Part shown: positions 1,541-15,858 of the stretch, piece by piece
Layout of the letters: every line of letters begins with the position of its first letter
Numbering within the stretch: position 1 is the first letter of the stretch
DNA from: Hyphomonas polymorpha PS728
Lineage (GTDB): Bacteria > Pseudomonadota > Alphaproteobacteria > Caulobacterales > Hyphomonadaceae
Assembly: GCF_000685315.1 (NCBI RefSeq)
Contig: NZ_ARYM01000005.1
Span: 124,001-188,000, forward strand
DNA: 64,000 nt
Direction of reading: 5' to 3'
The notes under the pieces: model-generated
The model's database searches: none
The model's input: the letters and a program-made list of their open reading frames with translations, nothing else
Told to the model about the DNA's origin: nothing
Position numbers and translations under genes: made by a program

Positions 1541-1680
1541 CGGGTTCGCGGTCATCGCGAGCAAAGGACCTCCACGTCATCCCAAGACTGCCCCAACGGC
1601 ACCCCGCCCCGGAATCACGCCTGATTACGCCAAGCACACCGTTGGCGTATGAAGGTATTGAAACTTCGCCACGACCAGAA

Positions 1681-1694
1681 TACAAACGTTTGCG
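1681..1694. promoter_or_regulatory. LacI-family operator upstream of the first SGNH esterase
   Basis: TACAAACGTTTGCG, containing the perfect 10-bp palindrome CAAACGTTTG with the central CG typical of LacI-family sites. Near-identical sites occur at 7913, 12870 and 13162, with a related one at 4201, all in front of genes of this locus and around its lacI gene. It lies about 113 bp before the TTG start at 1807. Binding by the local LacI protein is inferred. Confidence 0.8.
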
Positions 1695-1806
1695 TAATAA
1701 TGAGGTCAGGCGGTTTTTTGGGGTGTCTCGGTTCGGCGCCCCCATCTTCCGGGCACTCTGAATAAAATAAGCTGCGCAACGCAGCGCATACCGGGAGGAA
1801 CTGGAA

Positions 1807-2736
1807 TTGGTTGCCAGACAAAAACACCTTTCGCCGTTCCGCAATCTGGATGCTGACCCACGCGCCTCAAAGGTCGCTGGACGCAGTCTTGCCCTCCTCG
1901 CCTCTTTCGCCGCCCTTACGGGGTTGGCTGGCATCTGCGAAAGTGCGCCGAACGCGCAGCCCCCAGAGGGTCAGCAGATATGTGCACAGCTGAATTCCGG
2001 TGCCCGCGCATTCCTGGATGAGCTGATCCTTGACATGCTCGATCCCGAAAGTGATTTCAGCCACCTTAATTATCTCGGCGAGCCTGAAATGAAGGAGATT
2101 CAGTCTCTGGACATGGACCGCCGGAAGAGTGACTGGGGTAATCTCTGTCAGTACAGAGATGATAATATGATCCTCATGACGGGGCCCGCACCGAAGGTCG
2201 TCTTCCTTGGGGATTCGATTACCGAATTCTGGAGCATCGGCGATCCGGATCTGTTTGAGCAAGGCTTCATCAATCGCGGCATTAGCGGCCAGACTTCCTC
2301 ACAGATGCTGGTACGGTTCTGGCAGGATGTCATCCGATTGCAGCCTGAAGTGGTCCACATCATGGCCGGCACCAATGATCTGGCAGAGAACACCGGATAT
2401 GTCAGCGATGAGGCTTTCAAGGGCAACATCGAGGCAATGGTCACTCTGGCGCGCAGCCATGGAATTGGCGTGATCCTGGCAAGCATTCCGCCCGCAGGAT
2501 CCTTCGGCTGGCGCCCGGACCTCAATCCACCCGAAAGAATTTCAGCTCTGAATCAATGGATTGAAGAGTACTCTGCACAAAACGGCCTGGTTTTTGTGGA
2601 TTACCATAGCCTGCTGACGGACGATGGCGCGAAAATGTCAGAAAACCTCACACACGATGGGGTCCACCCGCATCGGGAGGGATATGCCCGCATGCACGAA
2701 GCCGCCCTACAGGCGATTGCCAAAGCGCAGAAGTAA
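1807..2736 (+). CDS. Secreted SGNH/GDSL hydrolase (esterase)
   Basis: A 309-residue SGNH hydrolase. Block I is GDSIT (nucleophile Ser), block II GISGQ (Gly), block III AGTND (Asn), and block V DGVHP gives the catalytic Asp/His. These enzymes remove acyl groups, often acetyl, from carbohydrates. A hydrophobic stretch SLALLASFAALTGLAG near residues 27-42 looks like a signal peptide after a long n-region. The start is a TTG with GGGAGGA 8 bases upstream; no ATG gives a better N-terminus. It is the first gene of a + strand series (second esterase, MFS transporter, glycosidase) behind a LacI-type operator. Substrate is not determinable; de-acylation of an imported saccharide is inferred from context. 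Confidence 0.85.
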   Translation: MVARQKHLSPFRNLDADPRASKVAGRSLALLASFAALTGLAGICESAPNAQPPEGQQICAQLNSGARAFLDELILDMLDPESDFSHLNYLGEPEMKEIQSLDMDRRKSDWGNLCQYRDDNMILMTGPAPKVVFLGDSITEFWSIGDPDLFEQGFINRGISGQTSSQMLVRFWQDVIRLQPEVVHIMAGTNDLAENTGYVSDEAFKGNIEAMVTLARSHGIGVILASIPPAGSFGWRPDLNPPERISALNQWIEEYSAQNGLVFVDYHSLLTDDGAKMSENLTHDGVHPHREGYARMHEAALQAIAKAQK

Positions 2737-2797
2737 ACTCTGCCATCGCCTGGAAAGCCGATTACCCATCCGTTCACGTCCCATCTCGGAGAAGCAA

Positions 2798-4093
2798 ATG
2801 TCCGCCCTTGTTATACGCCCCGGAAGTGCTCCTCACTGGTTGTCAGGCCTGCTGGCGGGCGCCGCGCTTTTGCTGGCGGCATGCCAGACTGCGCCACACC
2901 CGCACATGACCACCGAGAACCAGCACTCAGAGCAAAACTGGGTGGCAACGTGGGCCAGCAGTCCCTCGCTTCCTCTCGCTGCTGAAGCTGCACCGCCCGG
3001 GATGACCCCGGTACTTCTGGAGGGAACCGTTCGCCAAGAAATGAGGGTTAGCGCTGGCGGCGAGCGTGTCCGTATCGTTCTGGATGGGGGCGCGAGTGTC
3101 TCCCGGGTGTCCATCGGCGCCGCGACCATTGCCCTGGTCAAAGAAGGCCGGATAGACACTGCAAGCCTGCAACACCTTACCTTCTCCGGAGCTCCGGATG
3201 GGCTTATCCTCGCCGCAGGCGCGCCACTCTGGAGCGATCCGGTGGCGCTTTCCATTCCGGATGGCGGCGTCGTCTCGGTCAGTTTGTATCTTCTGGAGCC
3301 TATTCAGGTTCCTCAGGCGGACCCGCAATTGATCGTTGAAGTGGCGCCGGGCGGCGACCAGACGGCCGCTGCCGAGTTGACAGACAGCAGACGCGTGGTG
3401 GCCCGGCCGCTGTTGACCACGATCCATGTGGATAATCCTGAGGTGGACCGCGTCATTGTCGCTTTCGGCGACTCGATCACCGATGGAACCGGAAGCCGGG
3501 ATCCTCTCATGCGCGGCTGGCCGGATTACCTGGCCGAGCGTACGCGGGCTGAGGGTATGAAGAACGTCGCCATCATCAACCACGGCATCGGCGGAAACCG
3601 CCTTCTCCAAGACAGCGTCGGCCAGAGCGCCCTTGCAAGACTTGATCGCGATGTTCTGGCGATGCCAGGCGTCACGGACCTGATTCTTCTGGAAGGCATC
3701 AACGATCTTGGACTGAGCGGCCTCACGCTGCCGGGAATGAGCGAGCCCTTTCCTGCGGTGGAAGCTAAAGACATCATCGCGGCTTACACGCAGATTATCC
3801 AGCGCGCCCACACCAGGGGAATTCGGGTAATCGGAGCCACCCTGACGCCGGACCTCGGCTCCCCCTTTCCCGGCTACGCAACAGAGGAAAAGGATGTGAT
3901 CCGTAATGAGATCAATGAATGGATCCGCAATAGCGGCGCTTTTGACGCCATTATCGACTTCGACACTGCGGTGCGCGATCCTGAGAACCCTGCTTATCTG
4001 TTGAAGGCCTATGACGCAGGAGACCGCATTCACCCCTCTGATGCAGGCTACAAAGCCATGGCGGCCGCAATAGACCTTGATCTCTTTCGTTAG
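2798..4093 (+). CDS. SGNH/GDSL hydrolase lipoprotein, XynE-like arylesterase/acylhydrolase
   Basis: 431 residues from ATG 2798 (GGAG upstream). The N-terminus is a lipoprotein signal with lipobox LLLAAC (Cys29), so the protein should be membrane-anchored in the periplasm or at the outer membrane. An N-terminal beta-rich domain starting with VATWASSPSLP is followed by the SGNH core: GDSITDG (Ser), GIGGNR, EGINDL (Asn) and DRIHPSDAGY (Asp-His). This architecture is that of XynE-like esterases. It follows the first SGNH gene by 61 bp and probably shares its transcript. Two different esterases in one regulon suggest a substrate with more than one acyl type or position (inference). An in-frame upstream ATG at 2624 overlaps the previous gene and is unlikely. 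Confidence 0.87.
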   Translation: MSALVIRPGSAPHWLSGLLAGAALLLAACQTAPHPHMTTENQHSEQNWVATWASSPSLPLAAEAAPPGMTPVLLEGTVRQEMRVSAGGERVRIVLDGGASVSRVSIGAATIALVKEGRIDTASLQHLTFSGAPDGLILAAGAPLWSDPVALSIPDGGVVSVSLYLLEPIQVPQADPQLIVEVAPGGDQTAAAELTDSRRVVARPLLTTIHVDNPEVDRVIVAFGDSITDGTGSRDPLMRGWPDYLAERTRAEGMKNVAIINHGIGGNRLLQDSVGQSALARLDRDVLAMPGVTDLILLEGINDLGLSGLTLPGMSEPFPAVEAKDIIAAYTQIIQRAHTRGIRVIGATLTPDLGSPFPGYATEEKDVIRNEINEWIRNSGAFDAIIDFDTAVRDPENPAYLLKAYDAGDRIHPSDAGYKAMAAAIDLDLFR

Positions 4094-4200
4094 AGCCTTG
4101 GGCCCAGGGGTATCAAAGCCCCTCCCCACGCCGCCGGGAAAAAGCGTAACTTTGAAGAATGGGGCTGCAGAATATGGACAGCCAAGTCCGGAAAAAAATT

Positions 4201-4214
4201 TGCAATCGATTGCA
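4201..4214. promoter_or_regulatory. LacI-family operator upstream of the MFS transporter
   Basis: TGCAATCGATTGCA is a perfect 14-bp palindrome that fits the general LacI-family consensus TGNAANCGNTTNCA. It sits 37 bp before the ATG of the transporter. It differs from the four other sites at the two bases flanking the central CG, so it may bind more weakly or be read by another LacI protein. Confidence 0.65.
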
Positions 4215-4250
4215 CTGCGTCTACCATCAGATGAAGGCGAGGATCCAAGA

Positions 4251-5510
4251 ATGACTGTCTCCAACAGCTCTGCAGCAGCCATAGACCGGCCGGCAAGCCG
4301 CTACGGGTTGGTCACTGGCCTGACCTACGCCATGTTCTTCATGTTCGCGATGACAACCGATGCAGTTGGCGAAATCATCAGCATAGCCAAAGTGGAACTA
4401 AGCCTGTCGAATACTGAGGCGAGCCTGTTTCATTGGGCGACGATGGTGGGCATTGCGCTCAGCGGCATTTTGCTGGGATTTCTCGCAGATTTTCTGGGCC
4501 GGAAGAATGCGATTGTTCTGGGGCTCGCCATCTACGGAATTTCGTCCGCCGTTTTTTTCAGCTCCAGCTCCTTCTCGTTCTATTTGGCGCTGCTGTTTGC
4601 AGGTGGCCTGGCGATCGGTATCTTCAAAACAGCCATCCTCGCCCTTATCGGCGACATATCCACCTCCACAAGCGACCACACCCGCCGCATGAATGCGTGC
4701 GAAGGTTTTTTTGCCATCGGCGCGATTGTTGGCCCACTGACCGTCGTTACGCTTGATTCTGCAGGCCTGTCCTGGCGTTGGCTCTATCTGCTCGCTGCCG
4801 CCATGTGCGGGGTCATGATCCTCGCCTCCCTGCGAACCCGCTTTCCCGCCCCTGTCCGCCAGGTGGAAACCCCAAAGGCGGATATGCTGAGCGCGGTTCG
4901 ATTGATGGGTAACCGCCACGCCATGGGCTTCTCCCTTGCTATCGCCTTGTATGTCGCGTGCGAGGTCGCCATCTTCGTCTGGGCACCAACATTGTTTTCC
5001 GGCTACACGGGCACGCCACTGGCGATGGCAGTTGCAGCCTATGCGGTCATGATTTTCTTTGTCCTACGGGCTGTGGGCCGCTTTCTCGCGCTGTGGATTC
5101 TTCGGATTTTTGACTGGAAAGTCGTCATGTCGACGTTCACCGGCGCCATCTTTATCTGCTTCCTGCTCAGCACACTGTTCGGAAGAGATGTGGCTGTTTT
5201 CGCTCTGCCGCTCTCGGGGCTTTTCATGTCGATGATCTACCCCACCTTCAATTCGAAAGGCATCAGCTGCCTGCCTAAAGCCAAGCATGGTGCGGCCGCC
5301 GGCCTCATCCTTTTCTTCACCGCCGTCTCCGCTGCCTTCGCCCCTCTTCTCATGGGATATGTGAGTGACGTTGCCGGAAATGGCGACATGGCGGTTGGCT
5401 TTCACCTGGCTACCGTATTCGCGGCGCTTCTCTTTGCCTTGGCGCTCTACAATTTGATCGCAGATCCAGCTGGCGGCGCATTGGCCAACGCTGACTCCAG
5501 CGACTACTGA
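4251..5510 (+). CDS. MFS transporter, probable sugar importer
   Basis: About 419 residues with some twelve hydrophobic segments and a major-facilitator fold. The loop-2/3 signature appears as GFLADFLGRKNA. The start chosen is ATG 4251 (MTVSNSSAAAID); the longer frame from 4077 overlaps the esterase gene and the operator and lacks a membrane start. Its position between secreted esterases and a cytoplasmic glycosidase, with a LacI operator just upstream, points to uptake of the saccharide released in the periplasm into the cytosol. The exact substrate class within MFS is not readable from sequence alone; a fructoside is suggested by neighbours. The stop is followed 8 bp later by the glycosidase gene. 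Confidence 0.85.
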   Translation: MTVSNSSAAAIDRPASRYGLVTGLTYAMFFMFAMTTDAVGEIISIAKVELSLSNTEASLFHWATMVGIALSGILLGFLADFLGRKNAIVLGLAIYGISSAVFFSSSSFSFYLALLFAGGLAIGIFKTAILALIGDISTSTSDHTRRMNACEGFFAIGAIVGPLTVVTLDSAGLSWRWLYLLAAAMCGVMILASLRTRFPAPVRQVETPKADMLSAVRLMGNRHAMGFSLAIALYVACEVAIFVWAPTLFSGYTGTPLAMAVAAYAVMIFFVLRAVGRFLALWILRIFDWKVVMSTFTGAIFICFLLSTLFGRDVAVFALPLSGLFMSMIYPTFNSKGISCLPKAKHGAAAGLILFFTAVSAAFAPLLMGYVSDVAGNGDMAVGFHLATVFAALLFALALYNLIADPAGGALANADSSDY

Positions 5511-5518
5511 GTATCAGA

Positions 5519-6643
5519 ATGACTCTTCAAAAGCCGGTTCCGGTTCCTCCGCCGTCCTCCCTTCTCTTTGAAAATGGTATTTCGCATCCAGACCTCTGGC
5601 TCTGGGACTCGTGGACAGCGGAAACGGGCGGCATAACTCATCTTTATTGCCTTGCCCTCAGCCGCAAAGACATTGAAGGAAGGCCGGTTCTTCACGAAGA
5701 CCGCAATGACTATCCCTTCCATATACGCCATTTTTCATCCACTGATGCAGGCCGCACCTGGCAGGATCACGGGGCCTATCTATCCCCACAGACAATCGGA
5801 GATGGCGCATTCGCCCGCAACGTCTGGAGCGGTGGAATGCTTGCGCGCGCAGAAGATGATTGGCTGTGCGGCTTCACCGGATTGCGGGAAGCGGGGAAGG
5901 ACAGACCCTTCCTGCAAACGATATGCCTTGGTCACTCACATAGCGGGTTCCGGCTGGATACACCGCCGACAACAGCCCTATCCTGCCCGGTGCGCGACTA
6001 TGACAGCATCCGGTCTGCAGGATATTATCTGCCTACGAAGGATATGTTGGGCCATAAGGATGGCGAAGAGGGCGGCCCCATTCTCGCCTGGCGCGATCCC
6101 TTCATTGTTGCTGGCCCCGCCGACACCCTGGAAGTTTTCTGGTCTGCAAAAGTGTCATCAGTCCAAGGCACTGTAGCCCACGCGACCGTGACACAGAAAG
6201 GTAACGGCTTTCAGATTGAGAAGCTTCACCCGCCGATCCTCCTGCCCGATGCAGACTCTTTCACGCAGGCCGAAGTGCCCAAACTTTATTACGATCAGAC
6301 GAGCTCAACCTGGTTCATGGTGATTTCTGCATGCGATCGGATCAATGAGAGCCAGCCCGCAGAAGAAGTTACAAAAGTTCTGCGCCTGTACAAGTCCACC
6401 TCGATGAGAGGCCCATGGGTCAGCGCGTTTGGCCGTGAAGACTCTCTCGTCCCTGGAACAGAACATCTCTTTGGCGCCAGCTTCCTGCCCAGCGCCTGTT
6501 CCAGCAATAGCATTACCCTGATTGCACCCTATACGGAATATGCTTCACCGGACCGGCAGCTGACCTTTGCCCCTCCGGTGTCGATCAATATCGGCGAAGC
6601 CCGCCAGACATCTCGGGAATCCTCAGAACAGGATTCGCACTGA
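5519..6643 (+). CDS. Cytoplasmic five-bladed beta-propeller glycosidase, GH68/GH32-like
   Basis: 374 residues without a signal peptide. Three motifs match the clan of fructan- and sucrose-active propellers: WDSW around Asp30 (as in the nucleophile region of levansucrases), WRDP around Asp193 (the RDP transition-state stabiliser) and an acidic residue in AEVPK, Glu252, at the place of the general acid. GH68 enzymes are usually secreted and longer (over 400 residues), so this is a divergent cytosolic relative; GH43 or another propeller family cannot be excluded. It starts 8 bp after the MFS gene and so is probably in the same operon. The linked fructokinase supports a fructosyl substrate (inference). 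Confidence 0.7.
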   Translation: MTLQKPVPVPPPSSLLFENGISHPDLWLWDSWTAETGGITHLYCLALSRKDIEGRPVLHEDRNDYPFHIRHFSSTDAGRTWQDHGAYLSPQTIGDGAFARNVWSGGMLARAEDDWLCGFTGLREAGKDRPFLQTICLGHSHSGFRLDTPPTTALSCPVRDYDSIRSAGYYLPTKDMLGHKDGEEGGPILAWRDPFIVAGPADTLEVFWSAKVSSVQGTVAHATVTQKGNGFQIEKLHPPILLPDADSFTQAEVPKLYYDQTSSTWFMVISACDRINESQPAEEVTKVLRLYKSTSMRGPWVSAFGREDSLVPGTEHLFGASFLPSACSSNSITLIAPYTEYASPDRQLTFAPPVSINIGEARQTSRESSEQDSH

Positions 6644-6652
6644 TATGCGCGA

Positions 6653-7657
6653 TCAGGTGGAATGACGAATGATCAGTTCTGTCTTGGTGAAGCAGGAATT
6701 GGCGGTTCCGCCCTCCAGCTTTGCCAGCAGGAGTTCCACCAACATACGCCCGCCCTCGGCAATGTTCTGAGAAACAGTCGTAAGAGGCGGTGTCATCATG
6801 GATGACTGCCCGATATTGTCATAGCCCACGACCTTCACATCCTCGGGAATGCTGAGCCCCTCAGCCACCAGAGCATGCATGGCGGAATTTGCGAGAATGT
6901 CCGAACTGGCAAAGATGCCGTCTATCCGGTTACCCGCACGCAGAAATTCCAGAACCTGATCATAGGTGGTGCGCCCGCCGAAGTTCATGCGCAGCAGATA
7001 GGAAAGGTCATGAGCCACCCCCGACTCCTGGTGCGCCTTCTTGAACCCATCATAGCGGAGCTTAACTTCAGGCAGCCCGGGATCGCCGAGAAAGAGAATG
7101 TTTCTGGCCCCCCGGCTGAAAAGATGAGCCGCTGCGATATACCCGCCTTTGGCGTTATCACTGCCGACCGTTGTGTACTTGGCGCCCTTCATCCGTGCGC
7201 CCCAGACAACAAAGTTGGCATTTCGCGCGGCGAGATCGTTGAGGTGGGCGGCTCTTGCTGCCTGGCCAATAACGATAATCCCGTCGGCCCGGCCAGTATT
7301 GAGCAGGCGCTGTTCGGCGGCGTGGCTCGCTTCGCGCGGAACACTCACCACCAGATCGTAATCGAGTTCCGCAGCGGCCTGCGAGACACCGCCCACCATT
7401 TCCAGAAAGAAGGGATCGGACATCGTCTGATCCGTTTCCGGATTTAGCGGGATAACCATTCCCAGGGCGCGAGCCGACTTGCGCCGCAGGCTGCTTGCCG
7501 GAGCGTTGACAGCATACCCGACTTCGCTGGCAATCCTCTGAATCCGCTTGCGAGTGCTTTCCTTGACCACCGGACTGTCGCTCAATGCGCGCGAAACGGT
7601 CGAAATATCGACGCGCGCAATCTTCGCGAGTTCTATCATTGTGATCTTTTTGTTCAT
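6653..7657 (-). CDS. LacI-family transcriptional regulator of the locus
   Basis: 334 residues from ATG 7657 (MNKKITMIELAK). The N-terminal helix-turn-helix has the typical recognition segment ISTVSRALSDSP and hinge region VNAPASSLRRKSARALG, followed by a periplasmic-binding-protein-like effector domain with AADHLF-like and DGIFASSD segments. It is convergent with the glycosidase gene and divergent from the alpha/beta hydrolase genes. The palindrome at 7913 in the divergent region suggests autoregulation. Five operators of the same type in 11 kb make a local regulon. The inducer is unknown, probably a sugar entering through the MFS transporter. The extra 33 residues of the longer frame precede the HTH and are unlikely to be translated. 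Confidence 0.93.
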   Translation of the reverse strand: MNKKITMIELAKIARVDISTVSRALSDSPVVKESTRKRIQRIASEVGYAVNAPASSLRRKSARALGMVIPLNPETDQTMSDPFFLEMVGGVSQAAAELDYDLVVSVPREASHAAEQRLLNTGRADGIIVIGQAARAAHLNDLAARNANFVVWGARMKGAKYTTVGSDNAKGGYIAAAHLFSRGARNILFLGDPGLPEVKLRYDGFKKAHQESGVAHDLSYLLRMNFGGRTTYDQVLEFLRAGNRIDGIFASSDILANSAMHALVAEGLSIPEDVKVVGYDNIGQSSMMTPPLTTVSQNIAEGGRMLVELLLAKLEGGTANSCFTKTELIIRHST

Positions 7658-7912
7658 TTCGGGTCCCTGAAAACCAAGATATGCAATGAACCTGCCATGT
7701 GCCACGGTGCCAAACCTCCCTGCATCCGCAACAGATGCATAAGCGGTTGATGCCATTTGCGTTAAACCCTGACGCCCGCCGTCCGCATAGGATATTCCGC
7801 TCAGTCCATTTCGAATTTAGACACGATCCCAGTGAATGGCCAAGGGTCGATAGGCTCAAGAACACTCCCGGCGGACCCCAAAAAGCAGGGGTGAACACTA
7901 TGAAATCACCAA

Positions 7913-7926
7913 TACAAACGTTTGCA
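7913..7926. promoter_or_regulatory. LacI-family operator in the lacI / alpha-beta hydrolase divergent region
   Basis: TACAAACGTTTGCA, the best copy of the locus operator, lies between lacI (start 7657, minus strand) and the hydrolase gene at 8062. It could control both directions. Confidence 0.82.
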
Positions 7927-8061
7927 CAAATGAAATTCTGATTGTAGTTTTTACCAGCATTTGAATGGGCGCCCCGGAAGACCTCACGTGGCAATCAACC
8001 GGACGCAGGCAAACAGAGACAAAACAACATAGGCTGGCAAACCGGCTGGGAGGGAGGAAAC

Positions 8062-9156
8062 ATGGCCGCACGTTTGACAAGAAGGCAGTTTGGAATCGCA
8101 GGTATTGGCGCCGCTGGTGCCCTCACTTTGGGGACAGCGTCCTGCGCAGCCCTCGACCCAAAACCTGCCGTCCCTTCCCCACTGCTGGCGCGAGATCCTC
8201 TCAGTCATGTGGATCCAGAATTACGCGGGATTGCTGCGCGCATGATGGAGAATGGGCCGCCGCCAAGCTACTCGGCTGAAAGTCTCAAATCGGCGCGCGA
8301 TTTCGGAGCAGCATTCGCGCCACCCCGCCTGCCGGACATTCCTGTCTCGGAAGTGTTTGCCCCCCTTCCGGGCGGCGAGCCGGATGTGAAGCTCTTCGTC
8401 GTCAATGCCAAGCCAGGAGCCGCTCGCCCCGCTATTTTGCACTCACATGGCGGCGGGTACATACTTGGAAAGGCCGCATGGGAGGTCGGGCATCTGCAGG
8501 CGCTCGCACGCGACCTCGACTGCGTGATCGTCAGCGTCGAATACAGGCTCGCCCCGGAAACACGCTATCAGGGCTCGATCGAGGACAACTATGCCGGCCT
8601 CCTGTGGCTCTACAAAAATGCGGAGCCAATCGGCGCCGATCCCACCCGCATCGCTCTGCTTGGCGAAAGCGCTGGAGGAGGCCATTCAGCCCTGCTGGCG
8701 ATCACTGCGCGCGACCGGGGAGAAGTTCCTGTTGCCTTCCAGGCGCTCGTCTACCCCATGCTGGATGATCGCACGGGCAGTACACGCATGCCGCCGCCAT
8801 TTATTGGCGCCTTCGGCTGGGATGCGCCCTCCAACCGGTTCGGATGGGAGGCGTTCCTGGGCCATCCACCCGGCGGCGGAAGTGTGCCGGCTGGGGGTGT
8901 TCCAGCCCGCATTGAAAACCTGACGGGACTTCCGCCCGCCTTTATCGGCGTAGGCGGGATTGACCTGTTTGTCAGCGAAGACATCGAGTATGGGCACAGG
9001 CTGATTGAGTCTGGTGTACCCGTTGAACTGGTCGTCGTTCCCGGCGCTTTCCATGGCTTTGACAGAATTGCCGCAGACACAACCATCGCCAAACGCTTCA
9101 CCAAGGCGAAGGTAAACGCTTTGCGCCGGGCATTTGGCCAGCCGCAAGAGATATAA
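8062..9156 (+). CDS. Exported alpha/beta hydrolase, HSL-type esterase (first)
   Basis: 364 residues, hormone-sensitive-lipase family. Visible are HGGGY (oxyanion hole), GESAGGG (nucleophile Ser), GGIDLF (acidic residue) and FHGFD (His). The N-terminus TRRQFGIAGIGAAGALTLG resembles a twin-arginine signal, and a Cys in GTASC could be lipidated. The start is well supported by GGGAGGAAAC before the ATG. The operator at 7913 precedes it. Such enzymes hydrolyse short- to medium-chain acyl esters; together with the SGNH pair this makes at least three exported esterases in one regulon. Confidence 0.87.
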   Translation: MAARLTRRQFGIAGIGAAGALTLGTASCAALDPKPAVPSPLLARDPLSHVDPELRGIAARMMENGPPPSYSAESLKSARDFGAAFAPPRLPDIPVSEVFAPLPGGEPDVKLFVVNAKPGAARPAILHSHGGGYILGKAAWEVGHLQALARDLDCVIVSVEYRLAPETRYQGSIEDNYAGLLWLYKNAEPIGADPTRIALLGESAGGGHSALLAITARDRGEVPVAFQALVYPMLDDRTGSTRMPPPFIGAFGWDAPSNRFGWEAFLGHPPGGGSVPAGGVPARIENLTGLPPAFIGVGGIDLFVSEDIEYGHRLIESGVPVELVVVPGAFHGFDRIAADTTIAKRFTKAKVNALRRAFGQPQEI

Positions 9157-9202
9157 ACTGAGCCTGTTTTCCATCCGCTCAAAGATAACATCGGAGGGTC
9201 GA

Positions 9203-10351
9203 ATGAAAGTCCTGTTCCTGGAACGCCACATGCCAGCGTGGCGCCTTCTGCGCCCACTTGTGGCATCATGCGCTGGCCTGCTCGCAGCGTGTACGCACCA
9301 GCCTCTCCCGCCGCCCCCGGAAACCAGCACTCAGGTAAGTGTGGATCCAGACGGGCTGGTGCATGTCCCGGCCATGTTGGTTCCGGTGTCCGAATATCTC
9401 AGTCCGGAGGGCAAGGCATATCTCATTGATCACCTGCTCACGATGAAGAATCCCGAACTGCTGAAGGAAGTTGAGGGCATCGGCGGCCCGGCATTCCTCA
9501 AGGGATATATTGACCGGCAGAGAGAGCTCTTCGCCGTCCAGAAGTCCGAAACCGAAATTGGCGGTGTTCAGGTTTACGATTACACGCCCTCAGAGGGCAT
9601 CAAGCCAGAAAATCAGAACCGTGTGCTGATCAATTTGCATGGGGGCGGGTTCATAACTTGCTGGCCCGCCTGCGCCGAGGTGGAATCGATGCCTGTCTCC
9701 GCGCTGGGAGGCTACAGGGTTGTCGCGGTCAACTACCGCCAGGCACCCGAATACAAGTTCCCTGCCGCCAGCGAAGATGTCGCGGCCGTCTACACAGAAC
9801 TCCTGAAAACCTATCCGGCAGAAAACATCGGTATCTTTGGCTGCTCGGCGGGCGGAATGCTGACCGGCATGTCGCTGGCCTGGTTTCAGAAGCATAACCT
9901 GCCGACGCCCGGCGCGGCCGGTATCTACTGCGCCGGATCGGCCGCGCCGGTCAACGGCTTTGGCGGCGACGCAAACTATACGGCCACGGCCATTGGCGAG
10001 GCACGCTTCATCGCCCCGCTGCGCCCAACCGCCAGCGCTTCGGATGCTCCAAAGCGTTCAATGATGCCCTATCTTTCAGAGGTTGACCCGTACGACCCGC
10101 TCGTTGCGCCCGCTCACCATGACGAGATTCTGGCGGCCTTCCCTCCAACACAGATCATCACCGGCACCCGGGGATTTGAACTCAGCTCAGCTGTCTACAC
10201 CCACAGCAGGCTGGTGAAGCTGGGCGTGAAGGCAGATCTGCATGTCTGGGAAGGCATGTTTCACGGCTTTTACAGCAATCCGGACGTTCCCGAATCCCAG
10301 GACGCCTACAAGGTGATGGTCGACTTCTTCGACGAGCACCTCGGAAATTAG
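9203..10351 (+). CDS. Alpha/beta hydrolase lipoprotein, HSL-type esterase (second)
   Basis: 382 residues from ATG 9203 with a strong CGGAGGG site. The signal peptide ends in LLAAC, a lipobox. The core shows HGGGF, GCSAGG (nucleophile Ser, with Cys in place of the more usual Glu/Asp), and a C-terminal MFHGFY (His). It is only distantly similar to the preceding hydrolase, so this is not a simple tandem duplication. It begins 46 bp after that gene and is probably co-transcribed. It is likely anchored to a membrane facing the periplasm. Confidence 0.86.
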   Translation: MKVLFLERHMPAWRLLRPLVASCAGLLAACTHQPLPPPPETSTQVSVDPDGLVHVPAMLVPVSEYLSPEGKAYLIDHLLTMKNPELLKEVEGIGGPAFLKGYIDRQRELFAVQKSETEIGGVQVYDYTPSEGIKPENQNRVLINLHGGGFITCWPACAEVESMPVSALGGYRVVAVNYRQAPEYKFPAASEDVAAVYTELLKTYPAENIGIFGCSAGGMLTGMSLAWFQKHNLPTPGAAGIYCAGSAAPVNGFGGDANYTATAIGEARFIAPLRPTASASDAPKRSMMPYLSEVDPYDPLVAPAHHDEILAAFPPTQIITGTRGFELSSAVYTHSRLVKLGVKADLHVWEGMFHGFYSNPDVPESQDAYKVMVDFFDEHLGN

Positions 10352-10462
10352 TTGCCGGGTCGAGTTTGAGAGAATCCCGCCGGCTTTATGGACCTGGGCC
10401 CCCTCAAACATCACCCTATGACATACACCACGAGCTCTCCACCTTGGACGGGATGATACAGC

Positions 10463-11359
10463 ATGGTCGCAGAAACACGCGTGGCCGCAATTGAACTTGG
10501 CGGAACAAAATCCATCGCGATTTTGGCGGAGGGTAACACCGTGGTCGATCAGGTATCGGTTCCCACTACCACTCCGGAAGAAACGCTGCCCCACCTGCGC
10601 GACCAACTGAAAAGCTGGCACGCCGAAAAGCCCTTCTCGGCAATTGGGATTGCATCCTTTGGCCCCGTCCAGCTTCGACGACAAGCGGAGAACTTCGGCA
10701 GCATACTGAAAACCCCCAAACCATTCTGGACAAATGCCGATGTCGCGGGGGAACTTACGAGCCCTTTCGACTGCCCCTGGGCCATCGATACCGACGTGAA
10801 CGGTGCGGCACTTGCCGAGTATCGCTGGGGCGCGGGACAAGGCTGCACCAGCATTTGTTACATCACAATTGGCACTGGCGTCGGCGGCGGTATGGTTATC
10901 AATGGGCAACCAGTACATGGCTTCATGCATCCGGAAGTCGGGCATGTCCGCACACGCCGATCTCCCAATGACGCGTTCGCGGGCGCCTGCCCCTTCCATG
11001 GAGATTGTATCGAAGGGCTCGTTTCCGGCCCTGCCCTGGCAGCGCGTTTTGGGCGGCCGATGAGCGAAGTGAACGACGCAGATCCGCTCTGGATGCTTGT
11101 CGCCAACGACATCGCAGAACTGGTTTCCCTGCTGCTGCTGACCACATCAGCAGAGCGCGTATTGTTTGGTGGCGGCGTCAGCACCTCCCGGCCCTTTCTG
11201 CTTCCCTTGGTACAGAAACGCGCCCATGAGCTCCTGGCTGGATATCTTCCCATTCCGCAAACGGAAGATTTGTTTCCAATCGTCCGGCAAGCAGGACTTG
11301 GCAGCCTGGCGGGACCTCTGGGCGCGGTTGCGCTGGCTCACTCCGCACTCGGTATATGA
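10463..11359 (+). CDS. ROK-family sugar kinase, probable fructokinase
   Basis: 298 residues. The N-terminal phosphate motif IELGGTKS, a central ATP-binding segment IGTGVGGGMVING, the HPEVGH motif and the zinc-binding segment GACPFHGDCIEG (about residues 172-184) match the fructokinase subgroup of ROK kinases. It phosphorylates a hexose, most likely fructose, using ATP in the cytosol. It follows the second hydrolase by 111 bp on the same strand, without an operator of its own. It is the metabolic exit point of the locus and the strongest hint that the sugar handled contains fructose; related ROK enzymes accept other hexoses, so substrate is not certain. Confidence 0.85.
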   Translation: MVAETRVAAIELGGTKSIAILAEGNTVVDQVSVPTTTPEETLPHLRDQLKSWHAEKPFSAIGIASFGPVQLRRQAENFGSILKTPKPFWTNADVAGELTSPFDCPWAIDTDVNGAALAEYRWGAGQGCTSICYITIGTGVGGGMVINGQPVHGFMHPEVGHVRTRRSPNDAFAGACPFHGDCIEGLVSGPALAARFGRPMSEVNDADPLWMLVANDIAELVSLLLLTTSAERVLFGGGVSTSRPFLLPLVQKRAHELLAGYLPIPQTEDLFPIVRQAGLGSLAGPLGAVALAHSALGI

Positions 11360-11459
11360 AGCAGAATGCTGGCAAGCTACCACATACTGCCAGTTTCCAG
11401 GCCCGCCGGACAGGATCAGGGCGTGACCCTATCCGGCTTCCTGAACAGAGTGATGTAGA

Positions 11460-12845
11460 TCAGTCGGCCGACGTCCCAGTATCTTCGATCAGGTCAAGGA
11501 ATCCATTGACGATTGCCGTTTCAGCACAGCCTGGTTTTACCCGGGAAGAAACAACCTCAAAGGTGTTCTGAGCGAATGCCGCATCATTGGGAATGTACCC
11601 CGAGCGGGACATGCCATTGGTCAATGTCGCAACGATTGAGTTCTTGATGGGGGACTCCGCTTTGAACCGCTGGGCAATCATTGTGAAGATTTCCGCATCG
11701 ATTCCCCCGATCACGGTGTCACCGATTCTCAGGAGGCTGAGCTTCATCGGTACGGAGTCGGCGTCCTCGTAAACACCCGCGTAACCGGCGCGCCCTTTAT
11801 CAAGCCGGTTCCGCCCAGGGCAACTGACCGTCATCTGCGCCCCGGAAATCGAAGCCTGCGTCACCGGCCGCGCCAACCCGGAACGCAGAACATGAAGCAC
11901 CTCTTCACCGAGCATCTGGCCCAGCGTGGCATTCATCTGCTTTTGTTGCTCCATCAGCATCGCCACTTTGGGATTTGACCTGTCCATCCCTTGCCCACCG
12001 GGAGGCATTGCGTTGCTGATATCCTCTCCGCGCGCGGCGAAGTCGGCAATTCGGATTTCCCTGAGATCATAAGTCTGCTGGAAAAAGATCGGGTTCTGGT
12101 CGCCAGCGGCACCATAGGAAAATACCGCAACCGCGTCTTCCCCAAGGGACTCCTCAATGTAACCGGATGCCGCGCCGGGAATATCACCGCTGATCAGATC
12201 AAGGTTGCCCGTGATCACCGGATGTACCGCGTAATTGTAGTATACCGCGATGGGGGCTCCATCGAGGGATTGGAAGCTCAGCACAGCGACAGTCTTGTCA
12301 GACGGTCCCTGATAGTTTGGCCCTTCCCACCAACGGCCGGTCGCCGGATCGATGATGTTTCTATTTACGTTGATGTAGGAGACACCCGTGCCCGAAGCCA
12401 TTTTTGCGGGCTGAAGCGCGGCCGCAGCCTCTTCAACAGCCTGATACAACTGCTCCTCATAGCCCACGCTCCAGCCGAAGGGGACGCTGTGTGTATGGGT
12501 CGCCGTCAGAATGACCTGATTTGCCGGAATACCCAATTCTGCTTCAGCCTTGGTGGTAAGCCTCTGCCAGATCTCATTCGGTATGGCGCCGGCATCCACT
12601 GTCACCAGCGCCGCTCTTTGCGCGCCGTTCTCCAGCACAATTGCCCGGACATGAATGGGATCCAGAATGCCTGTGAATATCCCGGGCAGCTTATCGCCTG
12701 ATGGCGTGATATCGACCTTGGACGCACCCGCTTTCAATACGGCTTCCTGCGCAAGAGACGCCGATAGTGGCGAGAATCCTGCAACGATAGATATTGCGGC
12801 AACTGCGCTGCGCAGCGCGAAAACGCTTGAAGATATTTTGGTCAA
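11460..12845 (-). CDS. Neutral/alkaline ceramidase-like secreted hydrolase
   Basis: 461 residues. The mature part resembles the N-terminal domain of neutral/alkaline non-lysosomal ceramidases: KVDITPSG, TATHTHSVPFGW (metal-binding His117/His119), HPVITGN and SGDIPG. I place the start at TTG 12845, with GGGAGG 5 bases upstream and a clean signal peptide (SAVAAISIVAGFSPLSASLA). The longer frame to 12998 runs through the operator at 12870 and adds a non-signal extension. The family hydrolyses N-acyl bonds in ceramides, but distant members act on other substrates; here it is regulated with sugar genes. It is shorter than full ceramidases (about 640-700 residues) and lacks their C-terminal domain. 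Confidence 0.8.
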   Translation of the reverse strand: MTKISSSVFALRSAVAAISIVAGFSPLSASLAQEAVLKAGASKVDITPSGDKLPGIFTGILDPIHVRAIVLENGAQRAALVTVDAGAIPNEIWQRLTTKAEAELGIPANQVILTATHTHSVPFGWSVGYEEQLYQAVEEAAAALQPAKMASGTGVSYINVNRNIIDPATGRWWEGPNYQGPSDKTVAVLSFQSLDGAPIAVYYNYAVHPVITGNLDLISGDIPGAASGYIEESLGEDAVAVFSYGAAGDQNPIFFQQTYDLREIRIADFAARGEDISNAMPPGGQGMDRSNPKVAMLMEQQKQMNATLGQMLGEEVLHVLRSGLARPVTQASISGAQMTVSCPGRNRLDKGRAGYAGVYEDADSVPMKLSLLRIGDTVIGGIDAEIFTMIAQRFKAESPIKNSIVATLTNGMSRSGYIPNDAAFAQNTFEVVSSRVKPGCAETAIVNGFLDLIEDTGTSAD

Positions 12846-12869
12846 GTGAGCCTCCCTGAGCGGATTTAT

Positions 12870-12883
12870 TACAACCGTTTGCA
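12870..12883. promoter_or_regulatory. LacI-family operator before the ceramidase-like gene
   Basis: TACAACCGTTTGCA differs by one base from the site at 7913. It lies 25 bp upstream of the proposed TTG start at 12845, so it would lie inside the longer reading frame; this supports the shorter gene. Confidence 0.72.
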
Positions 12884-13161
12884 AAACGCGTAAGGGCGTT
12901 ACACGGACAACGCAAGTCAGAGACGGTGCCGCAATCCGGTTTTGGCCCGTTGCCGGGAATGATCCGTCCCCTGATTCTGCGCCCGATGAGGCGCTCAATG
13001 CTGCGCTGCGCCATTATATCTGCAGCTAAGGCTTGGCTTGGGCATTCCTCGGGTACGCAGAAACCGGCGAGCACAGCCCGCCACCGAACAACAGTTGCAA
13101 ATGCAACACTCGGGTCAGTTTATTTGCTGTTCCATCTTGGAATAGCTTGACGAGCGCGCTA

Positions 13162-13175
13162 TGCAAACGTTTGTA
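13162..13175. promoter_or_regulatory. LacI-family operator before the TonB-dependent receptor
   Basis: TGCAAACGTTTGTA, a perfect palindromic core, 34 bp upstream of the receptor ATG at 13209. It overlaps the expected promoter, consistent with repression. Confidence 0.82.
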
Positions 13176-13208
13176 TAGTTCTGAGAAAATGACTTCTGGG
13201 AGGAAGTA

Positions 13209-15317
13209 ATGCATCGTTTCCGCAACGCTTCAGCGATCTCGCTGATTCTCGCTCTTTCCGTGGCCGCCGGCACTGCCAACGCACAAACGGACGAGTCCAC
13301 ATCCACAGACAAAGAATACGAACTGGGCACAGTTACCGTCACAGCCTCCAAAACCGGGGCACAGGAACTGCAATCCGTCCCCTTGGCCATCCAGGCATTC
13401 TCCGGGGAGGAGATGAAGGTACGCAACATCACCACGGTCGACGATCTTGTATCGACGGTTCCGGGTGCATCTGAAGGTTTCCGTCAGTCCGTCAGTTCCC
13501 GAATCTACAATCTCCGCGGCGCCGTGAGCAGCAACGGCGATTCGCCGATCGGCTATTATCTCGACGACGTTCCTTTTGTGGTGCCGAATTTCGGTATTGC
13601 CCCGCCGGTGCGCTTCCTGGACATGGAACGCGTTGAAGTTCTGCGTGGCCCGCAGGGCACGCTTTACGGCCAGGGTTCTTCCGGCGGCGTCTTCATTTTC
13701 CACACCCGCGATCCCAACCTCGAGAGGGTTGAGTATTCTGCCGAAGCAGAAACCTCGCGGACGAGAGGCGCCGAAGACTACAATTATGGCCTCGCCGGCG
13801 CGCTCTCCGTCCCGATCATCAAGGACAAGCTCGCCATCCGCGTCAGCGGCGGCCATTCACGCAATCCGGGTTGGGCGGACGCCTATTACGGCCCGTATGA
13901 TGGCACCCCGGACGAAGAAGACGTGAACGGCGCGAAGAACGACGATTATCGTATCGTTGCGATGTACAAGCCCGCCGACAACGTCACGCTTCGCGCACAA
14001 TACTGGAACTTCCAGCCGAGACAGGACTTCACCGGCTTTACGGCGTCAGTGAACCCTCCCTACTTCCAGAATACTGCCGGACAAAAAGGCTTCAGCAACG
14101 GGGATTTCACCCTGATGAGCTTTACCGGCACGGTGGATTTCGACAAATTCTCTGTCACCAGCGCAACCAGCCATCTGGAAGGCGATTTCGGGATCAACAT
14201 CCCGCTTTCACCGGCCGGATCATTCTCCAGCCAGTTCGGCCCGAAACTGTTCTCGCAGGAAGTTCGTGCAAACTCCAACGGTGACGGCCCCCTCCACTGG
14301 CTGGTGGGCGCCGCCTATCAGGATGGCGAAGGCCCGCAGTTCAACACGCTGACGCTGCCCGTTGTTGTGATCAATGCGGACAACAATACGCTGACGGAGA
14401 ACTTCGCCGTGTTCGGTGAGGTCAGCTATGAACTGTTCGGGGGCAAAGTTGTGCCTCTGGTGGGTCTGCGGCAATACTATGACACCCGTACGTTTGAAGA
14501 CGCCACCGCATCGCTTCCGACCGAAGAGGAAGTGACCACCTGGCGGGTCAATATTTCCTATCTTCCTACTGACGATCTGACGATGTTCGTATCGGCAGCA
14601 ACGGGCTTCCGTCCGGGTATCGTGCAATCGCGCGTACAGGTACAATCCCTCGAGGATGCAGGCATCCCGACGGATGTGGCTCTGGACCCGGAATCATCCA
14701 AGAACTACGAGTTCGGCCTCAAATGGCGTCACCGTGAACTTGGTCTCAATTTTGGTCTGAACCTGTATCAGCTGGAGTATACCAACCTCCAGACCAACAC
14801 GCCCGGCGCAATTGCCGATGTGAACGGCTTCACCAATTTCGGCGACGCCACCACGAAGGGTGTGGACCTGGAAATCCGTTGGGATACGCCGATCGAGGGT
14901 CTGAGCTTGGGTGCTGTGGGCAACTTCAACGACAGCAAATACGATACGGTAGACCCGGTGGTGCAGACAGCCCTGCCGATGTTCCGGCCTGGTTCGCGTC
15001 TCGTGAACACGCTGGATCAGAACTACCGCTTCGACATCAACTACAACCGCGACCTCGGCAACGATATTACCGGCTTTGGCAATATCGGGTTCAGCCATTC
15101 GGGCGATCGCCTGCAGGCGAACGGTTTGACCGCAAATCCCTATGACATCGTCAACATGACTCTGGGTCTGCGGTTTGAACGGTATGAATTTGCGATTGTT
15201 GGAAACAACCTTGGGGATGAACGTGGCCCGACATTTCTGGGCACCAATGGCCCCCTGTCCGGTTCCGGCCCAACGCCGCGCACGCTGGGCGTGAGGCTGC
15301 GGGTTCTTTCCGAATAA
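13209..15317 (+). CDS. TonB-dependent outer-membrane receptor
   Basis: 702 residues. A signal peptide (SLILALSVAAGTANA) is followed by the plug domain (ELGTVTVTASKTGAQ ... VRGPQGTLYGQGSSGGVF with the usual EVLRGPQGTLYG motif) and a 22-strand barrel ending in a C-terminal strand with terminal hydrophobic pattern. It would import the oligosaccharide or acyl-sugar across the outer membrane using TonB energy. The start is set by GGGAGGAAGTA before the ATG. It is monocistronic, divergent from the ceramidase-like gene, has an operator 34 bp upstream, and is closed by a hairpin terminator at 15378. Nothing in it specifies iron versus sugar; the regulon indicates sugar. Confidence 0.92.
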   Translation: MHRFRNASAISLILALSVAAGTANAQTDESTSTDKEYELGTVTVTASKTGAQELQSVPLAIQAFSGEEMKVRNITTVDDLVSTVPGASEGFRQSVSSRIYNLRGAVSSNGDSPIGYYLDDVPFVVPNFGIAPPVRFLDMERVEVLRGPQGTLYGQGSSGGVFIFHTRDPNLERVEYSAEAETSRTRGAEDYNYGLAGALSVPIIKDKLAIRVSGGHSRNPGWADAYYGPYDGTPDEEDVNGAKNDDYRIVAMYKPADNVTLRAQYWNFQPRQDFTGFTASVNPPYFQNTAGQKGFSNGDFTLMSFTGTVDFDKFSVTSATSHLEGDFGINIPLSPAGSFSSQFGPKLFSQEVRANSNGDGPLHWLVGAAYQDGEGPQFNTLTLPVVVINADNNTLTENFAVFGEVSYELFGGKVVPLVGLRQYYDTRTFEDATASLPTEEEVTTWRVNISYLPTDDLTMFVSAATGFRPGIVQSRVQVQSLEDAGIPTDVALDPESSKNYEFGLKWRHRELGLNFGLNLYQLEYTNLQTNTPGAIADVNGFTNFGDATTKGVDLEIRWDTPIEGLSLGAVGNFNDSKYDTVDPVVQTALPMFRPGSRLVNTLDQNYRFDINYNRDLGNDITGFGNIGFSHSGDRLQANGLTANPYDIVNMTLGLRFERYEFAIVGNNLGDERGPTFLGTNGPLSGSGPTPRTLGVRLRVLSE

Positions 15318-15327
15318 CCAGCCGCAA

Positions 15328-15363
15328 ATGGGTCTGCCTTCCTGAAATTGAAGGCAGACCCAT
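15328..15363. repeat. 14-bp perfect inverted repeat after the receptor gene
   Basis: The arms ATGGGTCTGCCTTC (15328-15341) and GAAGGCAGACCCAT (15350-15363) are separated by 8 bases. There is no T-run, so it is more likely an mRNA 3' stabilising hairpin than a terminator by itself; the true terminator follows at 15378. Confidence 0.7.
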
Positions 15364-15377
15364 GCGGACGGACACCT

Positions 15378-15410
15378 ATCCCGCCAGCCCCCGCTGGCGG
15401 GATTTCTTTT
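15378..15410 (+). terminator. Intrinsic terminator of the TonB receptor gene
   Basis: An 11-bp perfect stem (ATCCCGCCAGC / GCTGGCGGGAT) with a CCCC loop, followed by TTCTTTT. It separates the LacI regulon from the oppositely oriented oxidase operon. Confidence 0.88.
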
Positions 15411-15537: not shown

Positions 15538-15858
15538 TCAGCAGCTGCTGGCGAACAAGACTGGCACGAGAGTGAACAGGCTTGCGAAGAGGCCGACCAG
15601 CGCTCCAGCACGGGGAAGCCATGTTTCACGGTCTTTGCCAGCGGGCAGACGTAACAGAAGCCAGCCTCCCGCCGCGATACCGGCCAGCCAGCCCAGCAGC
15701 ATCAGCAGGCGGTGAAGGCTGACGGGCCCGGCCTGGATGCCGCTCCAGCCTGAGGCGCACCCGGCGCCATGCAGGGCGTATACAAGGGTGAAGGTCGCCG
15801 CCCAGATTGCGGGGCCGAGCGCCACGAGACCAAGCCAGCGAAGCCCTCCTCCCTTCAT
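15538..15858 (-). CDS. Small membrane protein of the oxidase operon
   Basis: 106 residues with three or four hydrophobic segments (LGLVALGPAIWAATFTLVYAL, LLMLLGWLAGIAAGGWLLL, AGALVGLFASLFTLVPVLFA). Its ATG overlaps the stop of the oxidase I+III gene by four bases, so it is translationally coupled and probably an accessory subunit or assembly factor of the same complex. I do not recognise a named family. It is the last gene of the minus-strand operon; about 130 bp of unassigned sequence lies between it and the terminator at 15378. Confidence 0.75.
   Translation of the reverse strand: MKGGGLRWLGLVALGPAIWAATFTLVYALHGAGCASGWSGIQAGPVSLHRLLMLLGWLAGIAAGGWLLLRLPAGKDRETWLPRAGALVGLFASLFTLVPVLFASSC

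Follow-up and report, generated by a model that had tools for sequence, protein, structure and literature searches.

What would a sugar regulon do with five exported hydrolases? The question is raised by a locus of Hyphomonas polymorpha PS728 that lies in a 64,000-nucleotide stretch of contig NZ_ARYM01000005.1 (positions 124,001 to 188,000; this whole stretch is called the window, and its own numbering is used below). The locus comprises ten genes, for a LacI-family regulator, a TonB-dependent receptor, a major facilitator superfamily (MFS) transporter, a putative cytosolic fructosidase, a ROK-family fructokinase, four exported esterases, and a ceramidase-like hydrolase. The favoured answer, to which we give a probability of about 0.6, is that these genes form a regulon under LacI control with which the cell uses acylated sucrose or a beta-fructoside close to it.

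An initial annotation of the window had proposed uptake of an acylated fructose-containing saccharide or glycolipid, with removal of acyl groups outside the cytoplasm and phosphorylation of fructose inside. This interpretation is partly supported overall, and its core, an acylated fructoside, has been strengthened by comparison with other genomes: the same fructosidase/LacI module occurs in 13 of 18 loci that lack relatives of these esterases; one esterase gene is inherited together with the ceramidase-like gene, both being confined to carriers of the fructosidase in those genomes that were also searched for the latter; and other loci join a glycoside hydrolase of family 68 (GH68) with esterases, several of them with tannase/feruloyl esterases. 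The sequence content of the locus, its operator set, its conservation, and the co-inheritance are direct observations. A fructoside-specific core is suggested by the GH68-like predicted fold and invariant carboxylates of the glycosidase and by a kinase that is nearest to fructokinase 1xc3; among fructosides, the choice narrows to those of the sucrose type.

Gene content of the locus

Nine of the ten genes are backed by Pfam, and the exception, the GH68-like gene, is recovered by profile and predicted fold. The observation made in the initial annotation is confirmed. Export signals were in all cases judged by eye.

1807..2736, + strand: GDSL1, SGNH/GDSL hydrolase, exported (start codon TTG, preceded by GGGAGG; Pfam Lipase_GDSL_2, 1.5e-30)
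2798..4093, + strand: GDSL2, lipoprotein SGNH hydrolase with N-terminal domain, related to FjoAcXE-type carbohydrate acetyl esterases (Pfam)
4251..5510, + strand: MFS importer, weakly FucP-like (Pfam MFS_1, 2.9e-31)
5519..6643, + strand: GH68-like fructosidase (ortholog profile and predicted fold)
6653..7657, - strand: LacI-family regulator (Pfam LacI and Peripla_BP_3)
8062..9156, + strand: Est3, Tat-type lipoprotein esterase of the HSL family, GESAG (Abhydrolase_3, 1e-49)
9203..10351, + strand: Est4, lipoprotein esterase of the HSL family, GCSAG, PMGL2 relative (Abhydrolase_3)
10463..11359, + strand: ROK fructokinase, ScrK-like (Pfam ROK, 3.4e-51)
11460..12845, - strand: ceramidase-like hydrolase, exported (TTG start; Ceramidase_alk, 1.7e-16)
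13209..15317, + strand: TonB-dependent receptor (Pfam)

One palindrome before five genes

Is the locus a single regulatory unit? The five palindromes of the initial annotation are all present as 16-mers starting at 1680, 4200, 7912, 12869, and 13161; the positions it had given are the second base of each.

1680..1695: operator 1, ATACAAACGTTTGCGT, upstream of GDSL1-GDSL2 (same place in loci L005, L006, and L007)
4200..4215: operator 2, TTGCAATCGATTGCAC, about 35 nucleotides before the MFS start (pattern and syntenic recurrence)
7912..7927: operator 3, ATACAAACGTTTGCAC, between the divergent lacI and Est3 genes (pattern and syntenic recurrence)
12869..12884: operator 4, TTACAACCGTTTGCAA, about 23 nucleotides before the ceramidase-like gene (pattern and syntenic recurrence)
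13161..13176: operator 5, ATGCAAACGTTTGTAT, before the TonB receptor (pattern and syntenic recurrence)

The genes without an operator of their own follow another gene: GDSL2 after GDSL1, the fructosidase after the MFS gene, and Est4 and the ROK gene after Est3. Three of the five operators fit RYRCAAACGTTTGYRY exactly, and the sites at 4200 and 12869 do so only with three mismatches. Scanning the window at three mismatches gave 11 matches against 5.1 expected, a mild enrichment reached by 2 of 100 shuffles. The genome-wide counts, rather than this enrichment in the window, are decisive. In the 4.05-Mb genome, the pattern TGCAAACGTTTGCA with at most two mismatches occurs at 11 places (reversed-pattern control, 4) and the degenerate WYRCAAWCGWTTGYRW with at most one mismatch at 8 (control, 3), both patterns having been composed after the operators had been seen. 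Such a search had been proposed in the initial annotation; 5 of the 11 and 5 of the 8 places are the locus operators, which together span 11.5 kb. The comparison of syntenic loci, proposed there as well, found the palindrome before the same five genes in L005, L006, and L007. Between the window and L006 or L007 the sites are 69-94% identical and their 30-base flanks 25-45%, the identity of the sites being partly by construction, since the syntenic sites were found by pattern.

Two types of locus in Hyphomonas

Do the esterases always accompany the fructosidase? Among 18 named loci that hold the glycoside hydrolase gene, 13 are esterase-free (L008-L010 and L013-L022, with H. atlantica represented by L015), which means that the fetched flanks contain no relative (E 1e-8) of the esterases of the window, other kinds of esterase being outside the search; six of these 13 stretches (L013, L014, L016, L017, L019, and L021) end early at contig ends. 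The esterase-free loci retain LacI (13 of 13), ROK (11 of 13), and an ortholog of the MFS gene (10 of 13), with an MFS_2 transporter instead in L009. The five esterase-bearing loci are L005 (Hyphomonas sp. DS1.007), L006 (H. beringensis), L007, and the rearranged L011 and L012; L011 additionally carries BD-FAE and carboxylesterase genes. The LacI relatives beside the fructosidase are 53-97% identical in 17 loci and 37% identical in L021. A matrix built from 20 operator sites has at least one match in 12 of the 13 esterase-free loci (one each in L018 and L019) and none in L021; in L008, L009, and L010, palindromes precede the ROK or MFS genes and, doubled or tripled, the receptor.

The receptor differs between the two locus types. 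No open reading frame of the 13 esterase-free loci matched the receptor of the window, and a direct comparison with the L008 receptor gave no significant match (best E 0.06); the receptors of L008-L010 are 773-798 residues long. In a tree of the fructosidase, the esterase-type loci fall into two separate, strongly supported groups, which is compatible with either a single origin or more than one origin of this type.

The idea that the esterases belong with the fructosidase is consistent with their inheritance. Of 42 Hyphomonas genomes, 7 have an ortholog of Est4 (E 1e-80), and these same 7 have one of the ceramidase-like gene (E 1e-20); wherever the fructosidase was searched for as well, the genomes concerned proved to be carriers of it. 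Est4 is present in 7 of 11 carriers and in 0 of 26 non-carriers (37 Hyphomonas genomes; Fisher 3e-5, uncorrected for relatedness); as these genomes overlap with the named loci, this count and that of the esterase-type loci are not independent. All seven genomes with Est4 have a receptor ortholog of at least 70%, which is partial in G005. A sodium/solute symporter next to L011 and L012 was considered as an importer of released acids and set aside as incidental, being present in 39 of the 42 genomes.

GH68 and esterases outside Hyphomonas

Has the same combination been assembled elsewhere? In another family of the class, presumably the Sphingomonadaceae, the ceramidase-like profile found matches in 7 of 199 genomes. 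Four of these (G578, G889, G901, and G827) have the ceramidase-like gene near Est3, MFS, ROK, and GH68 genes, and the GH68 proteins scanned from three of the four pass Pfam at 179-215 bits. G578 and G889 additionally carry Est4, GDSL1, GDSL2, and a receptor that is 71% identical to that of the window. A LacI of 37% is found in G901 and G827, and none was seen in the fetched stretches of G578 and G889; tannase/feruloyl esterases are carried by G889, G901, and G827. Candidate palindromes of the CAATCGATTG type were seen in stretches from this family. In G955, a distant ceramidase-like copy lies in a region (L083, 3551-17057) with a tannase, a carboxylesterase, a rhamnosidase (GH78), and a GH3 enzyme, possibly for the degradation of acylated phenolic glycosides.

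A search of plasmids for GH68 at E 1e-40 returned 12 records, of which 10 were opened and nine, all sphingomonad, were analysed (a Nonomuraea region, H49, and H52 were left out). Five of the nine loci have esterases, two have an alpha-galactosidase, and two have neither, a split that fits a module for sucrose derivatives. The esterase type comprises Sphingobium RAC03 (ROK, tannase, SGNH), Novosphingobium KACC 22771 and N. humi (Est3, BD-FAE, tannase), THN1 (Est3, BD-FAE, carboxylesterase), and Sphingobium RC1 (fructokinase, Abhydrolase_3, and an esterase of the beta-lactamase family). The alpha-galactosidase type is represented by Sphingobium V4 and Sphingomonas R1, the latter also with a pair of GDSL genes that lie, several kb away, beside an MBOAT gene. 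In the plain loci, Novosphingobium sp. EMRT-2 and S. parapaucimobilis, neither enzyme lies next to GH68; EMRT-2 has a short alpha/beta hydrolase beyond LacI, and S. parapaucimobilis an S9 peptidase upstream. The receptors of EMRT-2 and R1 resemble that of the esterase-free L008 (36% and 32%). The alpha-galactosidase genes (L091:16016-18265, and 9860-11968 in L094) accompany the same GH68/LacI module, which suggests raffinose-family sugars as substrates.

Tomato roots and an algal phycosphere are among the isolation sources of the sphingomonad carriers. The Sphingobium RC1 plasmid pTomRC1a (L095, AP027307.1 64551-89609; L087, AP027307.1 34567-53541) encodes GH68, fructokinase, LacI, and two esterases; the GH68 locus adjoins acyl-CoA dehydrogenase and AMP-binding genes, and elsewhere the plasmid carries genes for isovaleryl-CoA dehydrogenase, methylcrotonyl-CoA carboxylase, and inositol catabolism. 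This makes it a candidate acylsugar-catabolism plasmid. RC1 stems from tomato-root work (PMC10653915), and the accessible part of that paper makes no mention of sucrose, acyl, esterase, fructokinase, or pTomRC1a. Est3 by itself was rejected as a marker for such loci: of four plasmid regions opened on this basis, two lie among aromatic-ring dioxygenase/oxidoreductase genes, one among acyl-CoA and inositol genes, and only one by GH68.

Could the esterases have nothing to do with the sugar? The regulon might be a plain sucrose regulon, whose repressor also governs esterases and a ceramidase-like hydrolase that scavenge unrelated esters, arriving together with sucrose in plant or algal debris. This alternative, which draws on the esterase-free majority of loci with their ROK (11) and MFS (10) genes and on the Est3 relatives in other contexts, has a real but small chance of being right. 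It does not lead one to expect that the receptor differs between esterase-bearing and esterase-free loci, that Est4 and the ceramidase-like gene are co-inherited, or that another family has the set again beside GH68; moreover, to judge from the GH68 loci with alpha-galactosidase, which enzymes are added depends on the sucrose derivative.

A divergent, putative fructosidase

How confidently can the glycosidase be called a fructosidase? The protein of the window has 374 residues and no visible signal peptide. Alone, it matches no Pfam family at E 0.001 or E 10 and no sequence from the Protein Data Bank, and the Pfam Glyco_hydro_68 model does not detect it. A profile of 19 orthologs, by contrast, finds levansucrases at E 2.7e-6, and all but two of its 19 members (17) have a weak match to Pfam GH68 (best 2.7e-6). 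A single-sequence AlphaFold model was dropped for its low predicted confidence (pLDDT 36) in favour of an alignment-based AlphaFold2 model (pLDDT 90.2), which has the five-bladed propeller fold. For this model, Foldseek ranks levansucrases, inulosucrases, and a single fructosyltransferase as the best 15 solved matches (E 5.7e-14 to 9.8e-12, template-modelling score 0.55-0.63, root-mean-square deviation 5-10 A), followed in the ranking by GH32 and GH43 enzymes.

All 19 orthologs keep D30 (in WDSW), W103-S104-G105, R192-D193-P194, and E252 unchanged, and both aspartates, D30 and D193, have aligned counterparts in three canonical GH68 proteins. MAFFT and HMMER place E252 two residues before the acid of SacB; its EVP motif resembles ECP of GH32 and ERP of GH68. 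The protein shares with GH68 levansucrases and inulosucrases the predicted fold, the WDSW and RDP motifs with their invariant aspartates, and WSGS, and it differs from them in not reaching the Pfam model, in its length of 374 residues, in the absence of a visible signal peptide, and in identity (at most 18% in the 50 solved matches listed). It may best be described as a distant, divergent relative of GH68 within clan GH-J. A class-wide search found two weak matches beyond its own genome in 385 genomes. One ortholog, in a single Hyphomonas genome (G020:C1:2670836-2671924), has an internal TGA.

Is the sugar sucrose or a longer fructan? An acylated oligo- or polyfructan, such as an acetylated levan or inulin fragment, would be served by the same enzymes, and the fold also matches an endo-levanase and beta-fructofuranosidases. 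Such a substrate is nevertheless unlikely: a Pfam scan of the locus showed no exported fructanase, the sole fructosidase has no visible signal peptide, and four of the nine GH68 plasmid loci are of the galactoside or plain types.

The ceramidase-like hydrolase

The ceramidase-like protein resembles neutral ceramidases (2zws, 4wgk) in its N-terminal part, which includes the HTH motif and to which the profile match is limited (4.2e-13 for 2zws). Unlike them, it has about 460 residues instead of 646-688, and Asn252 (GDQNP, in 5 of 5 aligned rows) stands where 2zws has GNLSP, with the catalytic serine (Ser274 in 2zws). H118, H120, H209, E386, and Y418 are invariant in the five rows, and the alignment with 2zws covers only the N-terminal part with the histidine motifs. 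These residues may be zinc ligands, which in ceramidases are His, His, Glu, and Tyr. Because of the replaced serine, hydrolysis of esters by this enzyme is a guess from its gene neighbours. The glycolipid branch of the initial annotation is not supported: a fructose- or sucrose-containing glycolipid opened at an amide-linked acyl chain has the Pfam name Ceramidase_alk in its favour, and it is very improbable given the partial alignment, the asparagine, the roughly 200 missing residues, and other loci in which the gene sits near tannase or carboxylesterases.

Its own genome apart, the profile of this protein gave one distant match among 289 genomes from the class, and it gave one strong match among 398 from the phylum. 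Matches were also present in 34 plasmid records, 21 of them from Agrobacterium. On the pAt plasmid of Agrobacterium vitis (L089, 6089-9320), the gene is paired with a carboxylesterase gene, and dioxygenase and maleylacetate reductase genes lie some kb away.

Esterases, kinase, and transporter

The four esterases belong to two folds. GDSL1 and GDSL2 have the Ser, Gly, Asn, and His blocks of SGNH hydrolases, by Pfam and by blocks kept in six aligned rows: GDSITEFW, GISGQTS, AGTNDL, and DGVHP in GDSL1, whose best solved relatives are 3p94 and 4iyj, and GDSITDG, GIGGN, EGIND, and IHPSD in GDSL2. The phmmer matches of GDSL2 are 9kr0 (2.6e-62) and 7tog (9e-59), the latter over nearly the whole length; 7tog is cited in a paper on FjoAcXE-type SGNH carbohydrate acetyl esterases, which have GNSI around the serine where GDSL2 has GDSI (PMC9105624). 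Est3 and Est4 show the HGGG and GxSAG motifs and the Abhydrolase_3 domain of HSL-type esterases, with HGGG and GESAGG of Est3 kept in seven aligned rows; Est4 has Gly where PMGL2 carries the usual Asp, so its triad is only predicted. Signal peptides are visible in GDSL1 and the ceramidase-like protein, lipoboxes in GDSL2 (LLAAC) and Est4, and a Tat-type lipoprotein signal (RRQF and a cysteine) in Est3; none is visible in the kinase.

The ROK kinase is predicted to be a fructokinase by its phmmer scores (210 bits for 1xc3 against 73 for the best glucokinase), although ScrK, its top NCBIfam model, is under its cut-off (197 against 400 bits). The MFS transporter matches FucP models at 7.7e-17 and 3.7e-15, far under the model cut-offs. 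Two 39-nucleotide stretches of the window (10233-10271, and 15598-15636 past the end of the receptor gene) are 74% alike, probably by chance.

A proposed pathway

How might the parts work together? In the proposed acylated-sucrose regulon, the TonB receptor would import the acylated sugar into the periplasm, where, or at the membrane, the two SGNH esterases, the two HSL-type esterases, and the ceramidase-fold hydrolase would strip off the acyl groups. The MFS transporter would carry the freed sucrose inward for cytosolic cleavage by the GH68-like enzyme, after which the ROK kinase would phosphorylate the fructose; the LacI protein would keep the five promoters off through the one palindrome until a sugar ligand appears. 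The substrate and its acyl groups, the flow, the locations and specificities of the enzymes, and the repression are all inferred.

Several observations weigh against this scheme. The window fructosidase alone fails the Pfam GH68 model, its fold matches deviate by 5-10 A, and its catalytic acid is insecure in view of the two-residue offset from SacB. In G030, a contig ends in part of a 68% receptor gene, with no match for the fructosidase, Est4, or the ceramidase-like gene, and G859 and G977 have the receptor and the ceramidase-like gene (G977 also GDSL2 and Est4) with no GH68 in the fetched stretches. A fructokinase was seen in only two of the five esterase-type plasmid loci. The esterase families are promiscuous, with Est3 relatives also in contexts of aromatic degradation, and the material gathered for this analysis records no acylated sucrose from Hyphomonas habitats.

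A wider proposal, for which the chances seem about even, is that these loci represent an undescribed class of acyl-sucrose regulons. A module for sucrose, made up of LacI and its palindrome, a GH68 or GH68-like enzyme, fructokinase, and MFS, would be combined with a receptor to match and with interchangeable front ends (esterases/tannases or alpha-galactosidase). Hyphomonas and sphingomonads would apparently have exchanged it, and the Hyphomonas fructosidase would found a new family of clan GH-J. The suggestion is that a sucrose regulon can be retargeted by exchanging the receptor and the de-acylating enzymes under one repressor. Concrete candidates for study come from the locus and its sphingomonad counterparts: the esterases, the receptor, the operator, and the family of divergent fructosidases.

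Acylated sucroses are made by plants. The acylsugars of Solanum are described as protective plant compounds (PMC7599763), and the sucrose esters of phenylpropanoids form a natural-product group of large size (PMC11397724). A bacterial uptake-and-degradation locus for acylated sucroses was not found among the literature matches listed, preprints and most subscription journals being outside the search; nor did these matches contain a system of the composition seen here.

Relation to known sucrose systems

Which described systems come closest? The parts of Scr- and Sux-type loci are all present: a TonB receptor, an importer, LacI, a shared palindrome, and a putative intracellular sucrose-splitting enzyme. 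The simplest account of the locus is a sucrose regulon of this kind that has been given a de-acylating front end. The likeness is one of gene roles. The Xanthomonas sux CUT locus (SuxA, the amylosucrase SuxB, SuxC, and SuxR; PMC1790865) has in common with the window a TonB receptor, an inner-membrane transporter, a repressor, and an intracellular sucrose hydrolase; unlike the locus of the window, this four-gene locus uses another hydrolase family and has neither fructokinase nor esterases. The Shewanella Scr pathway consists of the LacI protein ScrR-II, the GGP-family transporter ScrT-II, the TonB receptor OmpScr, the fructokinase ScrK, and the sucrose phosphorylase ScrP (PMC2996990). It shares with the window LacI, the TonB receptor, an MFS transporter (with weak similarity to FucP in the window), and the fructokinase, whereas Hyphomonas polymorpha has a GH68-like fructosidase in place of the sucrose phosphorylase, and five exported hydrolases in addition.

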